64,000 bases of DNA from a virus. Positions 2,214 through 64,000 of this stretch are shown here, piece after piece. The stretch lies in the IMG/VR virus record IMGVR_UViG_3300044638_004427, positions 1-64,000 of that record. The stretch is one strand, 5' to 3'. The position numbers and the translations under genes were made by a program. Each line of letters starts with the position of its first letter. Position 1 is the first letter of the stretch. The notes beneath the pieces were generated by a model. It had not been told where the DNA came from and did no database searches. It was given only the letters and a program-made list of their open reading frames with translations.

Positions 2214-2775
2214 GCGGGCGCGGATATATATACAGGGTCAATCGATTCAGTTGAAGGTGTAGAAGTTCTATGCAATGTCAAGTTCTTAGACGGTGTTTTG
2301 GGGGTCACTGATTTAGTTGATCGTAATGATTTCAATGGGTTAGGACGATTTGAGGGGTTGGCATGGGGCTAGCATTGATGTCTGGCATGACGGCGACGTC
2401 ACGAGATAGCACTAGATTCTCTCTCTCCTCTCTCATCTAGTGTTAACTCTCTCCTCTCTCCCGAAATACCCCACGGACGGGGTATCGTTAGCGGATGGTT
2501 ACCGCTAGCCTGATGATGGGTAACCCTTTGCATGAGTTGGTCTTCGTGCATTGTATAAGATAGACTAGTGATCGCGTGGCAATAAGCCTGACGATTGCGC
2601 CGATAGGGTACCACGCTAAAGCCTTAACTGGCTATGCTTAGACGCCCTAGCGCCCCCGATAAGACGGTTATTGGTCCGGGGTATAGCCGATAACAAACGG
2701 TTAGAAGTCCGTTGAATCGGTGCAAGTTCGAAACAACCCTAGGGAATGGGTTGTCGCAAGGGTTAACCTTGCCTG
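2214..2775 (+). ncRNA. Candidate large structured noncoding RNA
   Basis: About 560 nt without a credible gene and visibly richer in G and C than its surroundings. Helices seen directly include 2332-2337/2373-2378, 2388-2392/2397-2401 closed by a GCGA (GNRA) tetraloop, 2410-2417/2435-2442, 2466-2472/2479-2485 and 2487-2494/2502-2509. They continue with 2529-2535/2544-2550, 2574-2579/2611-2616 enclosing 2580-2583/2594-2597, 2667-2674/2687-2694, 2696-2700/2709-2713, 2734-2739/2748-2753 and 2756-2761/2767-2772. A repeated CTCTCTCCTCTCTC tract is at 2421-2434 and 2447-2460. Size, density of helices and phage context recall the ornate RNAs GOLLD and ROOL. I cannot assign a family from memory of their sequences. 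A GTTCGAA at 2726 resembles a T-loop but no T-stem forms. Confidence 0.55.
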
Positions 2776-5017: not shown

Positions 5018-6355
5018 ATGTCAACATACAAGATAAAAAATTTCTCGGTCACCATTAAAAAAGAAGAAGATGCAGTGACTCCTGCTTCTTTAATTACAAT
5101 GTTCAAACTATTAAACGACAGGAACAATATTGAATTAGTTAATAGAACACAAAGAGAATCCCTAAAGAAAAGTGTACATAATAAAACAACCTTGGCCGTC
5201 TTGCACACTAACTATCACAGTATGCGCTCGGTTCGTACTGCGTTGCGTATTAATATCAAACGTGTTGTACGTACTGATATTGTTGTTACGTTGCCCCCTA
5301 TGTCTCACAAAAAACGCCTTAAGTTACAAGCTATTGGGGCACCTAGTCTTCCATCATACACAACAAAAACTGATTTTAGTTTTCAAAAGAATAGAATTGT
5401 GTTGTTGCAACGTGCTGAGTCTTGTGTTCGTGATCTTATTAATAGGATTCAATCAGCACGGGCTGCTTCCCGTGAAATTCAAACACGCACTAAAACATTT
5501 ACAACTAACTCCGGTCGAGTTGTATCTTTTACTGTAACGGGAGGGTACACTAGCTTCAATGGTAGAAAACAATATAACACTGGGTTCACTGAGCCTAACT
5601 CTATCATTAAGATACAACAAAAACTTAAAGTACAAGGTATCTTCGAACCTAAAAAACCTACCACTACCGAACGTCATATCGGTATTGAGATTGAGTTTGC
5701 TTGTGTTGCTGGTAAAACTGAACTAGCTGATGCATTATATAATGCTGATGTTGCTAGTTATGTTCAGCTTAAAGATGATGGTAGCATTCGTGACTTCCCA
5801 TCTAATCATAAGCCGCACGAGTTAGTTGTCTGTGTGCCTATCAGTAAACGCGCCGATGTTATCAGTCGTGTTTGTGGTGTGCTCGAAAAACTAAATGCGA
5901 ATGTTAATAAAACATGTGGTTTGCATGTGCATTTGGATATGCGTAATGACAATGTATCCTCTGCATTTAATAATCTTGTGTCTGCTCAGAACATTCTGTA
6001 TCAAATGATTCCGCAGTCACGCCGCACTAATACTTACTGTAAGAAAACTTTGACAAAAGATTATGTCAAGGCTCGTCGCTCTAGTGATAGATATGTTGGT
6101 ATCAATCCTATGTCATTCAGCCGACATAGTACAATCGAGGTACGATTGCATAGCGGTACAACAAACTACACAAAGATTATAAACTTTGTGGATATTCTGA
6201 TTGCAGTAGCGTACAATAGTGCGAGAATTGTTCGGGCGGCTACCACTGTTCGAGGATTCATTAGGCAACACGATATCCCTAGTTATCTTGGTGCTTACAT
6301 TGAACAACGTATTACGTTGTTCGGTGGGTTGTCTTCGGTTGAAGAGTCTGCTTAA
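5018..6355 (+). CDS. Amidoligase-like enzyme (glutamine synthetase-type fold)
   Basis: 445 residues, SD CTGGAGG. The C-terminal half carries the signatures of the Amidoligase_2 group of carboxylate-amine ligases: GIEIEFA (222-228), DGSI (254-257), CGLHVHLDM (300-308) and TIEVRLHSGT (372-381). These correspond to metal- and ATP-binding positions of the glutamine synthetase fold. The N-terminal 210 residues are basic and unrecognised and may bind the target. Such enzymes join an amine to a carboxylate using ATP. The next gene is a class II glutamine amidotransferase, so the pair could use glutamine-derived ammonia or remodel gamma-glutamyl bonds. The substrate cannot be read from sequence. Confidence 0.75.
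   Translation: MSTYKIKNFSVTIKKEEDAVTPASLITMFKLLNDRNNIELVNRTQRESLKKSVHNKTTLAVLHTNYHSMRSVRTALRINIKRVVRTDIVVTLPPMSHKKRLKLQAIGAPSLPSYTTKTDFSFQKNRIVLLQRAESCVRDLINRIQSARAASREIQTRTKTFTTNSGRVVSFTVTGGYTSFNGRKQYNTGFTEPNSIIKIQQKLKVQGIFEPKKPTTTERHIGIEIEFACVAGKTELADALYNADVASYVQLKDDGSIRDFPSNHKPHELVVCVPISKRADVISRVCGVLEKLNANVNKTCGLHVHLDMRNDNVSSAFNNLVSAQNILYQMIPQSRRTNTYCKKTLTKDYVKARRSSDRYVGINPMSFSRHSTIEVRLHSGTTNYTKIINFVDILIAVAYNSARIVRAATTVRGFIRQHDIPSYLGAYIEQRITLFGGLSSVEESA
6302..6322. repeat. Perfect 21 bp inverted repeat at the end of the amidoligase gene
   Basis: GAACAACGTA and its inverse complement surround a central T. The core ACAACGTA recurs in the noncoding repeats at 10200-10322. It lies within codons for EQRITLF, so the symmetry may be chance or an operator in a coding region. 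Confidence 0.4.
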
Positions 6356-6386
6356 TTATTAACAATAACATTGGAGAATAAATAAT

Positions 6387-7319
6387 ATGTGTAAAATTAT
6401 GGTGATGGCTGGAGTTAATAACGCTAATCGTAAACTTGCATGGGAGTTCACTAAACAAATGGCTATGCAAATGTCTCCCGGTAATAATGATGGTTTAGGG
6501 TATGCAGCTGTAACAGCCGAGGGTGAATTGTTTGGTGAACGTTGGCATGTAAATTCAGAAGCATTCGCTAATCGTCCAGCTGCTGAAGTACCTTCATCCG
6601 AAGAGGTTAAAATTATTCGTAGTTTTGATGGTGTCCTTACTCATACACAAAAGCCTGTGCGTTATAATAAATTCGGTAGCATCAACGAGGATGCAATGGT
6701 TGGCATTACATTGCATACTCGCATGGCTACCAGTGGTAAACAATTTATTAACACTCATCCTTTCGTTCGTGGTAAGACTTCGCTCATTCATAATGGTGTT
6801 ATTGGTAACGCTGATAGTCTTGAATTGATTCAGTCAACGTGTGACAGTGAGGCAATTCTTAACCTGTATGTTAAGCATAACGTTTCAAACAATATGCAAG
6901 CCATTCAGAAAGTTGCACACAAGTTGTCAGGTTATTATGCTTGTGGTGTTATCACTGACACCAAACGTTTCGGTCCAGTCATTGACGTATTCAAAGATGA
7001 TCGTGCTCGTTTGTCTGCTGCCTTTATTCGAGACATGGGTATCGTTGTGTTCAGTACTGTGATGGACGACATTGAAACTGTTTGCAACAAGATGGGTATG
7101 GAGATTGCATATAAGTTCGGTGTTAACAGTGGTATGTTACTCAGACTTAGCGCATTGTCTGGTGCCCCTCTTGCTGTGCAGAAGTTCAAGCCTGTATTTA
7201 AACACACCGAAACTTCTAAGGGTAAGAAACCTTCTTGGAGTTTTTCGACGGACGGTACATATAGTGAAGACGAAACAACGTGGTCTACTGTAAATAGTTT
7301 GAATGCCTGGAGGAAATGA
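6387..7319 (+). CDS. Class II glutamine amidotransferase
   Basis: 310 residues. Starts MCKI, giving the Cys2 nucleophile of the Ntn-type glutaminase after Met removal. HTRMATSG (110-117), THPF and HNGVIGN (135-141) match the substrate and oxyanion positions of the family (as in PurF, GlmS and YafJ-type domains). No second catalytic domain is fused. The last 70 residues are low-complexity Ser/Lys/Thr. It probably releases ammonia from glutamine or acts on gamma-glutamyl groups. It lies 31 bp after the amidoligase gene, its likely partner. Confidence 0.8.
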   Translation: MCKIMVMAGVNNANRKLAWEFTKQMAMQMSPGNNDGLGYAAVTAEGELFGERWHVNSEAFANRPAAEVPSSEEVKIIRSFDGVLTHTQKPVRYNKFGSINEDAMVGITLHTRMATSGKQFINTHPFVRGKTSLIHNGVIGNADSLELIQSTCDSEAILNLYVKHNVSNNMQAIQKVAHKLSGYYACGVITDTKRFGPVIDVFKDDRARLSAAFIRDMGIVVFSTVMDDIETVCNKMGMEIAYKFGVNSGMLLRLSALSGAPLAVQKFKPVFKHTETSKGKKPSWSFSTDGTYSEDETTWSTVNSLNAWRK

Positions 7320-56587: not shown

Positions 56588-57016
56588 TTACATAATTCTC
56601 CTTTTAATTAAATATATCCTACCACTTGATTTAGTTGCAATATCTGATAAAAGGTTTTTGTCGCCTTCGCTATAACCACCTTGTTTTACAAGCATATCCA
56701 CCATAGAACAAACTTCTTTTTCCTTACCAAGAAGGATAGTAAAGTATTCTTTGTTTTCCTTTACTTGTGAAGGCATACCTTGCATGGAAGACATAACCAT
56801 TTGCATTACTTGGCTAATGTCGTATGATCCGTATAGAGATACGTACTTCTCAGCAGCACGGTCATATTCGCCTTGTAAAGCTTCGTAGAAATCACCAAGA
56901 GCGTCGTGATCTGCAAAGAATAAAGCACCCTTTACATTGTGGTGCATAGCTTGGCTTACAATTTGCATCATTCGGAGTTGGGCAACGAGTTTAAGGAATA
57001 GCTCTTGTGGATTCAT
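56588..57016 (-). CDS. Dps/ferritin-like four-helix protein
   Basis: 142 residues. MMQIVSQAMHHNVKGALFFADHDALGDFYEALQGEYDRAAEKY strongly recalls the Dps pattern (His, VKG, F, H-D, E, YD, E). Histidines 25/26, Asp36, His37 and Glu50 could form a metal site. It lies amid virion genes. Whether it oxidises iron or is only a fold relative is unknown. Confidence 0.55.
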   Translation of the reverse strand: MNPQELFLKLVAQLRMMQIVSQAMHHNVKGALFFADHDALGDFYEALQGEYDRAAEKYVSLYGSYDISQVMQMVMSSMQGMPSQVKENKEYFTILLGKEKEVCSMVDMLVKQGGYSEGDKNLLSDIATKSSGRIYLIKRRIM

Positions 57017-57777
57017 AAATTACCTTTTATTTTTAAATATTCTTCTTTTGTAATTTTTTTAAATGTGTATCCTTTAATTGTTTTATTTTTATTTTCAAAA
57101 TAACGGCGAATTGTTTGATTACAGGTGTTTAATTCTAAACATAGTTGTTGATAAGAAGAAAAAACTTTATTGGTTTCAATACATAAAAGAAAAACTGAAT
57201 TATGAGTAAAATTACCTTTTTTATAAAATTCTTTTAGTTTATTACTCTGTTTTTCTGACCATTCTTTTGTTCTTTTTGTTTTATTTCTGTTTTCAATACT
57301 TTTTTTAGAAGTAATAGCAGCTATAATTGTTTTTTTATATTCTGGGTCCTGAAATCTTTTTTTATTTTTTTCAGAAATATTTTTTCTTCTACTATCGTTT
57401 TTCCACGCTATTAATGCTGCTTTTTTTCTTTTATTTATAGATTCTTGAGTTTTTACTGTAATTAATAATTTATCATACACAGATTGTGTTAACATCGGGG
57501 ATAATTCACCACCAATAGTAATGTTGTATCCTGTATCAATTGTGTTGTGTTTTTTAATTAAATACATTTCCATCTCACAGGCTTCTTGTTTTGTTAAACA
57601 ACAAGCAATTATTTCTTTTTTACAGTTATCAAATCCATATTTTTTTATAGCGTTAGATAATTTACCTTGTTTTTTATTAGATTTATGTTGAACCATTCTG
57701 TGTATAAAATTATTAGTTAATCCTATATATAATTTATTGTTTGGAAATGTTATTTTATAAACACAGTAATTATTCAT
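57013..57777 (-). CDS. GIY-YIG homing endonuclease
   Basis: 254 residues from ATG 57777 (an upstream frame from 57810 is rejected). VYKITFPNNKLYIGLTNNFIHRMVQH has the GIY-YIG signature in the form VYK...YIG, with the helix Arg; CEMEMYLIKKHNTIDTGYN supplies the Glu. NUMOD-like basic repeats follow, and a helix-turn-helix end (SSYQQLCLELNTCNQTIRRYF). ATGA-coupled to the Dps-like gene. Confidence 0.8.
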   Translation of the reverse strand: MNNYCVYKITFPNNKLYIGLTNNFIHRMVQHKSNKKQGKLSNAIKKYGFDNCKKEIIACCLTKQEACEMEMYLIKKHNTIDTGYNITIGGELSPMLTQSVYDKLLITVKTQESINKRKKAALIAWKNDSRRKNISEKNKKRFQDPEYKKTIIAAITSKKSIENRNKTKRTKEWSEKQSNKLKEFYKKGNFTHNSVFLLCIETNKVFSSYQQLCLELNTCNQTIRRYFENKNKTIKGYTFKKITKEEYLKIKGNL

Positions 57778-57778
57778 A

Positions 57779-58216
57779 TTATGGTTTAGGGTGTTTAATT
57801 TTAACCTCAATACATTTTAGCACATAAGCATCCATTTGAGAAGAGTCACCTTGGTGTAATTTTACATAGGCATCGGCAAATTCCCCCAAAGATGGATATT
57901 CTTGTAGTCTTTTTCTATGACACTCTTGTAAAAGCCATTCTGGATCTTGGGATAAATCAATTATAGAGACAGTGTACTCGGCCTTGAGCTTAACCCACTT
58001 ATGAGATACTCCGTCAAGAGTGTCACGCATCTCTTCTTCGAGCACGTCAGCTTCGTCGTATGCTTCAGCCATCAGCTCGTCTTTGTGCAAGACCCATCGT
58101 TCGGGAAGACCCCAAGCACATGACGCTACACACTCCGCAATCCATGCGGTAGGATCTTCCATCTGTGCGCCGTGAGTCTGAACGCCTACTAAGTTTTTAA
58201 TGATAATCTTTTTCAT
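57779..58216 (-). CDS. Hypothetical tail-associated protein
   Basis: 145 residues. LQEYPSLGEFADAYVKLHQGDSSQMDAYV resembles the C-terminal part of small phage proteins beside fibre genes. Acidic and helical. Possible fibre-assembly role. Confidence 0.5.
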   Translation of the reverse strand: MKKIIIKNLVGVQTHGAQMEDPTAWIAECVASCAWGLPERWVLHKDELMAEAYDEADVLEEEMRDTLDGVSHKWVKLKAEYTVSIIDLSQDPEWLLQECHRKRLQEYPSLGEFADAYVKLHQGDSSQMDAYVLKCIEVKIKHPKP

Positions 58217-63336: not shown

Positions 63337-64000
63337 TTATTTTTTATATATTAATCGTAATTTACCACAATCATATACTCTATATAAACCATCTTTTAAA
63401 GAATGCTGGTGTTCTGTCATTTCAGTAGGAGTATTCACCAGCGACTTTTGCCTTGATTGCTTAGATACGATCTTTGTGTTTTTAGAATTGTAATAAAAAT
63501 AATCAGGAGGTAATGTCCCGCTTAAAATCCAACCATTCTTAAACCAGGAAGACCCATTAGACCATCGTAAATCTACCCAAGTGATTAGTTCGTTATACTT
63601 AATACAGGCATATTTGGTTAGTTTTGTAACTCCCCCAGAAACAGTATAGTTTTCTTTTGTGCAATACCTACTAAGAACATATTCTTTATTTTTTCTATGG
63701 TGCTTACCAATAGTAATTATAGAAATTAATTCGTCATTAAAATATAAACCAAATGCTTCTATAAATGAGCAAGCCCCTAAAATGTGATATTCATTTAAAA
63801 ATTGTTTAGCTTCTTTTTTGTCTACTTGTTTTATAATGCATTTTCTTGCGTGAATACGTAATTCATTTTTACCTAACTTAGATCTTAAAAATGATTTTAC
63901 CTGCTTATTTCTATCACGCCATTCGTAATCGAATATGTGAATTAAATCCAATCCAGCTTCTTTTGCTATGTTTGTTTTATCAAGATGATAACGGGGATAC
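63337..64000 (-). CDS. EDxHD-type homing endonuclease (partial)
   Basis: The frame is open from the window edge: YHLDKTNIAKEAGLDLIHIFDYEW, then RIHARKCIIKQ, FLNEYHILGA and LISIITIGKHHRKN. This is the catalytic core of Vsr-like EDxHD homing enzymes, with the first Glu-Asp as DYEW. The true start lies beyond 64000; the apparent TTG start at 63951 is inside the domain. It abuts a fibre gene. Confidence 0.75.
   Translation of the reverse strand, partial: YPRYHLDKTNIAKEAGLDLIHIFDYEWRDRNKQVKSFLRSKLGKNELRIHARKCIIKQVDKKEAKQFLNEYHILGACSFIEAFGLYFNDELISIITIGKHHRKNKEYVLSRYCTKENYTVSGGVTKLTKYACIKYNELITWVDLRWSNGSSWFKNGWILSGTLPPDYFYYNSKNTKIVSKQSRQKSLVNTPTEMTEHQHSLKDGLYRVYDCGKLRLIYKK

Follow-up and report, generated by a model that had tools for sequence, protein, structure and literature searches.

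Two predicted type II hammerhead ribozymes around a structured noncoding insert in a phage genome

The DNA analysed here (the window) is a stretch of 64,000 nt from an IMG/VR virus record (IMGVR_UViG_3300044638_004427). Near its start, the interval 2214-2775 contains no convincing gene, and its base composition is unlike that of the neighbourhood, as a preliminary description of this DNA had pointed out: the G+C of the gene-free stretch is about 0.49, versus 0.30-0.40 in its surroundings. The first open reading frame (ORF) downstream in this phage (2818-2988, + strand) encodes 56 aa and belongs to no known family. Elsewhere in the window, an Amidoligase_2 gene adjoins a glutamine amidotransferase (GATase_6) gene at 5018-7319, possibly a peptide-modifying pair in the phage, and two ORFs on the minus strand inside the late gene block (57013-57810 and 63337-63951) match homing endonuclease families. 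The locus described below is found at the same place in four lineages, namely the window phage (with its near-twin L002), L003, L004 (= L005 and L006) and L086, whose segments are 76-100% identical in the four-lineage alignment.

The preliminary description treated all of 2214-2775 as one large folded RNA. Its dense helices and real structure are borne out, but not in the 5' half. The segment 2452-2790 folds with a z-score of -3.17, with none of 100 shuffles equally stable, whereas the fold of 2213-2450 is no more stable than expected by chance (z = -0.07; 87 of 200 shuffles equally stable). For the leader region, a consensus fold computed from three phages has a positive, that is, unfavourable, covariation term, and together with the z-score this rules out a structured 5' leader. 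The structure is therefore real, confined to the 3' part of the interval, and extends beyond 2775; the end previously given at that position falls inside the CUGAUGA core of a ribozyme. The true structured unit spans about 2452-2790 and consists of two type II hammerheads in the same direction, HHR1 and HHR2, around a structured noncoding insert.

A promoter-like site on the plus strand (2180-2207), read directly from the sequence, combines TTGCAT, a 16-nt spacer and a perfect TATAAT (2202-2207). The claim that it is a consensus sigma70 promoter holds for the -10 element, which is perfect and whose context is kept in L003 and L086, but not for the upstream hexamer, which lies 16 nt 5' of the -10 and equals TTGACA at 3 of 6 positions; nor does a promoter consensus scan lend weight, as its sites were no more numerous than in shuffles. 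Three direct copies of a 17-nt repeat, TGGCATGGGGCTTGCAT, are located around the promoter-like site (2114-2375). The leader of the presumed transcript (2213-2451, + strand) has diverged in L004. It holds a hairpin with a CU-rich loop (about 2409-2443), which is absent from L086, and is otherwise without evidence of conserved structure. CU-rich tracts such as CTCTCTCTCCTCTCTC are present 5' of HHR1 in all four lineages (2409-2462 in the window, 7500-7462 in L086), and in three of the four one of them lies in a hairpin loop. They might base-pair with purine-rich ribosome-binding sites or serve as a binding site for a protein.

HHR1 (2460-2525, + strand) is recognized by the Rfam Hammerhead_II model, a structural descriptor and covariation in stem I. 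Its predicted parts, all on the plus strand, are stem II CCC/GGG (2460-2462/2518-2520), GAAA (2463-2466), stem III (2466-2472/2479-2485), AUC with the predicted cut between 2486 and 2487 (after C2486), stem I (2487-2494/2502-2509) and the core CUGAUGA (2510-2516), which is followed by an extra U at 2517. Loop I GGUUA (2497-2501) is predicted to form a pseudoknot with UAACC (2521-2525), and 4 of its 5 pairs are possible in all lineages.

HHR2 (2724-2786, + strand) is recognized by Hammerhead_II, by a covariance model made from HHR1 only, and by covariation in stems II and III. It is predicted to comprise, again on the plus strand, stem II AAGUUC/GAACUU (2724-2729/2781-2786), GAAA (2730-2733), stem III (2733-2739/2748-2754), GUC with the predicted cut between 2755 and 2756 (after C2755), stem I (2756-2761/2767-2772) and the core CUGAUGA (2773-2779), with the extra U at 2780. 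Its fold z-score is -3.39, and the minimum free energy and centroid structures are both the hammerhead fold. A contact between stem I and the tail is only a weak candidate in HHR2, with at most about 3 pairs by eye. The preliminary description also listed a helix with a GNRA loop; the site intended is uncertain, and the GCAA at 2756-2759, which can resemble such a loop, is the 5' strand of HHR2 stem I in the supported fold.

Several searches converge on these two sites. The window has two copies of the motif CCTGATGATG, at a distance of 263 nt from each other, where 0.06 would be expected, and the second copy closes another complete type II hammerhead. A strict structural descriptor finds exactly two sites in the window, HHR1 and HHR2, and gave 0 matches in 51.2 Mb of randomised sequence. 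The covariance model made without HHR2 still detects it, in the window with E = 1.2e-6 and also in L003, L004 and L086, and in 92 kb nothing besides HHR2 matches it. A further CTGATGA at about position 983 was discarded, the descriptor showing no hammerhead around it. In a permissive Rfam search, HHR1 gave the sole convincing match (Hammerhead_II, 2459-2529, 30.6 bits, E = 6.3e-4); HHR2, searched alone in 86 nt, scored 26.9 bits with the same model (E = 4.2e-4), and the next best families at both sites were at chance level. Both scores are under the 37-bit gathering threshold of Hammerhead_II (RF02276), which is a curation cut-off and not a defining structural feature, and both E-values are below 1e-3 in these short searches. 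GAAA, UH at the cut and CUGANGA are found in type II order at both sites in all four lineages, and the three helices, with stem II open, are kept by compensatory changes. Judged by core, order, fold and covariation, HHR1 and HHR2 are predicted members of the type II hammerheads, though sub-threshold ones.

Both hammerheads read CUGANGA-U-stem II in every lineage, one U beyond the consensus, which probably accounts for part of the low Rfam scores. The plus-strand hammerhead of Chrysanthemum chlorotic mottle viroid (CChMVd) likewise has a natural extra nucleotide after A9, an A (PMC3705267); it is viroid-borne and not of the phage type II kind. Mutation of this A10 to U made trans-cleavage 3-4 times faster, whereas a C or G there was harmful (PMC3705267). 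The phage ribozymes carry naturally the same change as the rate-raising laboratory mutation, U in place of the viroid's A. Because U at A10 speeds the CChMVd hammerhead, the extra U would, by analogy, be expected to be compatible with ribozyme activity.

Comparison of the four lineages gives evidence that the structure is maintained. In the four-sequence alignment, 98.7% of the cells at 94 pairs are paired, and both-sided changes occur at 8 pairs, a number reached in 0 of 500 shuffles and compared with 0-1 in slid-partner controls. Five of these pairs are in the hammerheads and three in the insert. Four belong to HHR2: at two pairs of its stem III, C-G is replaced by U-A, and in its stem II A-U becomes G-C and U-A becomes C-G. 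HHR1 has one, in stem I, its stems II and III being invariant. All four lineages have intact cores (GAAA, AUC or GUC, CUGANGA), the sole core change being at N7, a position free to vary. An alignment of related phages, proposed earlier as a check on the helices, thus supports those in the 3' half by compensatory changes.

The insert proper (2526-2723, + strand), judged by the consensus fold and pair counts, contains helices at 2529-2536/2543-2550, 2568-2580/2586-2598, 2620-2623/2630-2633 (helix 10), 2654-2658/2677-2681 (helix 11), 2663-2665/2674-2676 (helix 12), 2687-2691/2716-2720 and 2696-2700/2709-2713, all on the plus strand. Helices 10, 11 and 12 show the compensatory changes; with three both-sided pairs in four related sequences, the predicted insert fold is provisional. 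A short segment at 2551-2563 (columns 100-112 of alignment A3) is hypervariable. It pairs the window with L004 and L003 with L086, contrary to the ribozyme segments, which suggests recombination within the unit.

The two predicted cuts delimit a released RNA of 269 nt (2487-2755, + strand), to which length conservation, the lack of open frames and hammerhead chemistry all speak. Its predicted length is 268-269 nt in all four lineages, and in none of them is a reading frame open throughout the segment; a protein-coding insert was rejected, the frames being broken in every lineage. From hammerhead chemistry its ends are expected to be a 5'-OH and a 2',3'-cyclic phosphate. An Rfam covariance search returned zero matches at the gathering threshold. 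The earlier idea of a structured, possibly new phage noncoding RNA stands for the 3' half, where the compensatory changes are, although it had overlooked the two hammerheads.

The surroundings of the unit differ among the phages. In L086, the similar sequence runs from the CU tract and stem II of HHR1 to a point just past HHR2, and the unit is therefore a module bordered by the ribozymes. An unrelated 68-aa ORF of no known family (L086 7490-7696, - strand) is situated between leader and HHR1 there and only there. Directly 3' of HHR2, small ORFs other than that of the window phage start in L003, L004 and L086, and these have ribosome-binding sites.

Pattern scans and the neighbours of GP88 genes place the unit only in this phage cluster. 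A looser descriptor found no other convincing hammerhead in 1.9 Mb of fetched loci, a joint hammerhead model found nothing close among GP88-gene relatives, and similar DNA was not found in reference phages or plasmids. Pattern matches in L239 and L240 are chance occurrences inside coding sequence, and matches to the 17-nt pattern in bacterial genomes, scanned with the descriptor only, gave no convincing hammerhead. A genome search with RF02276 missed even the window's own copies, and its negatives carry no weight.

We consider this locus to be a self-excising phage RNA gene, which two hammerheads cut out of an operon transcript and whose released RNA is functional, with a probability of roughly 0.75. 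In a read-through transcript of the locus both type II hammerheads would fold, and each would cleave its own strand, at 2486/2487 and 2755/2756. The double cleavage would free the 269-nt structured noncoding RNA with capped ends, the 5' end by stem I of HHR1 and the 3' end by stem III of HHR2. A stem III hairpin would remain at the 3' end of the upstream RNA, and the downstream mRNA would begin with a 5'-OH stem I hairpin shortly before the next gene's ribosome-binding site. The released RNA would probably act in the host cell early in infection, the timing being suggested by the placement of the unit ahead of a rightward gene block. We infer that the locus is transcribed, that the ribozymes cut in the cell and that they serve to release the RNA, as well as this timing; the released RNA is taken as the product on the grounds that its length and helices have been preserved, with compensatory changes.

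RtcB joins 5'-OH and 2',3'-cyclic phosphate ends, and the ends expected from hammerhead cleavage suit it. The released RNA might therefore be closed by host RtcB, or by the reverse reaction of the ribozyme, with the circle as the stable product; this would be a further step on excision and not an alternative to it. The joined ends would rebuild a chimeric hammerhead, its 5' half from HHR2 and its 3' half from HHR1, in which stems III and I are intact. Its stem II, as derived from the sequences, would be weak: besides one C-G it would have two or three more pairs, mostly wobbles. No RtcB or RNA_ligase family protein was found in the phage records, so that a host enzyme would be needed; in a search of the same records for the T4 Rnl1 family the control gave no signal. 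Other phage hammerhead pairs have been probed for circles and none were found (PMC3088659), and overall we regard circularisation as unlikely.

It also appears rather improbable that the hammerheads serve as mRNA punctuation, defining where the upstream RNA ends and where the downstream mRNA starts, while the intervening RNA is discarded. There are published gene-flanking phage hammerheads that process transcripts in vitro (PMC3088659), in L003, L004 and L086 the next gene has its ribosome-binding site just 3' of HHR2, and a stop codon precedes HHR1 closely in L086. For such a role, however, a single hammerhead would suffice, and a discarded spacer fits poorly with an insert length constant to 1 nt, three compensatory pairs and a unit z-score of -3.17.

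Splicing driven by the ribozymes, in which two cuts are followed by ligation of the leader to the downstream mRNA and the insert behaves like an intron, has been suggested as one option for phage hammerhead pairs (PMC3088659), but is very improbable here: the stem II of the joined flanks would oppose CCC to GAA, with one pair only, and the upstream ORF of L086 differs, so that there is no fixed exon pair. Membership of the giant ornate GOLLD or ROOL RNAs, put forward in the preliminary description and likewise phage-encoded structured noncoding RNAs of unknown function (PMC12286853), is refuted by the covariance search and can practically be dismissed, since those RNAs are larger and often near tRNA islands, whereas the insert matches no Rfam family even at permissive settings, GOLLD and ROOL included, no tRNA was found in the 64-kb window, the 5' half is unstructured and the released 269 nt are far below the size of GOLLD.

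Excision of a functional RNA by two hammerheads, the reading we prefer, can be set against known systems. Perreault and colleagues described type II hammerheads with a loop I-tail pseudoknot, their clusters in phages flanking genes, and cleavage in vitro (PMC3088659). HHR1 and HHR2 share with that class (RF02276; PMC3088659) the order GAAA, stem III, UH cut, stem I, CUGANGA and open stem II, and HHR1 also has the typical, non-universal pseudoknot; they depart from the consensus in the U inserted between A9 and stem II, and their scores are 27-31 bits. The clustered phage and prophage hammerheads of C. scindens, A. caulinodans and A. tumefaciens ardA (PMC3088659) likewise come as two close copies on the same strand and are also expected to cut one transcript twice. 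These published pairs flank protein genes, whereas between the two hammerheads of the window lies a structured noncoding RNA whose length is fixed. Retrozymes and viroid-like circular RNAs (PMC4918200, PMC7761336) are similar in that noncoding RNAs of a few hundred nucleotides are excised by hammerheads. Their ribozyme, however, is part of a unit, repeated or circular, capable of replication or retrotransposition, while the window unit has two ribozymes of differing sequence and a single DNA copy with no sign of mobility; a search of the record for a repeated unit found this single copy and no long direct repeats.

In the open-licence literature we found no report of a hammerhead pair framing a structured noncoding RNA. 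The hammerhead class itself is known; the differences here are the framing of such an RNA by the pair and the presence of the extra U in both copies. Hammerheads with U after A9 may score under the Rfam threshold, and more units of this kind possibly lie unseen in phage metagenomes. We put forward only tentatively the broader proposal of a new class of phage RNA gene, matured without protein, in which two type II hammerheads with U10 would excise a conserved RNA of ~269 nt, perhaps circularised by host RtcB, that acts on the host during infection. The known phage pairs flank protein genes whose identity changes. With a conserved noncoding RNA between its members, a pair would give phage hammerheads a testable purpose, the protein-free maturation of an RNA gene.
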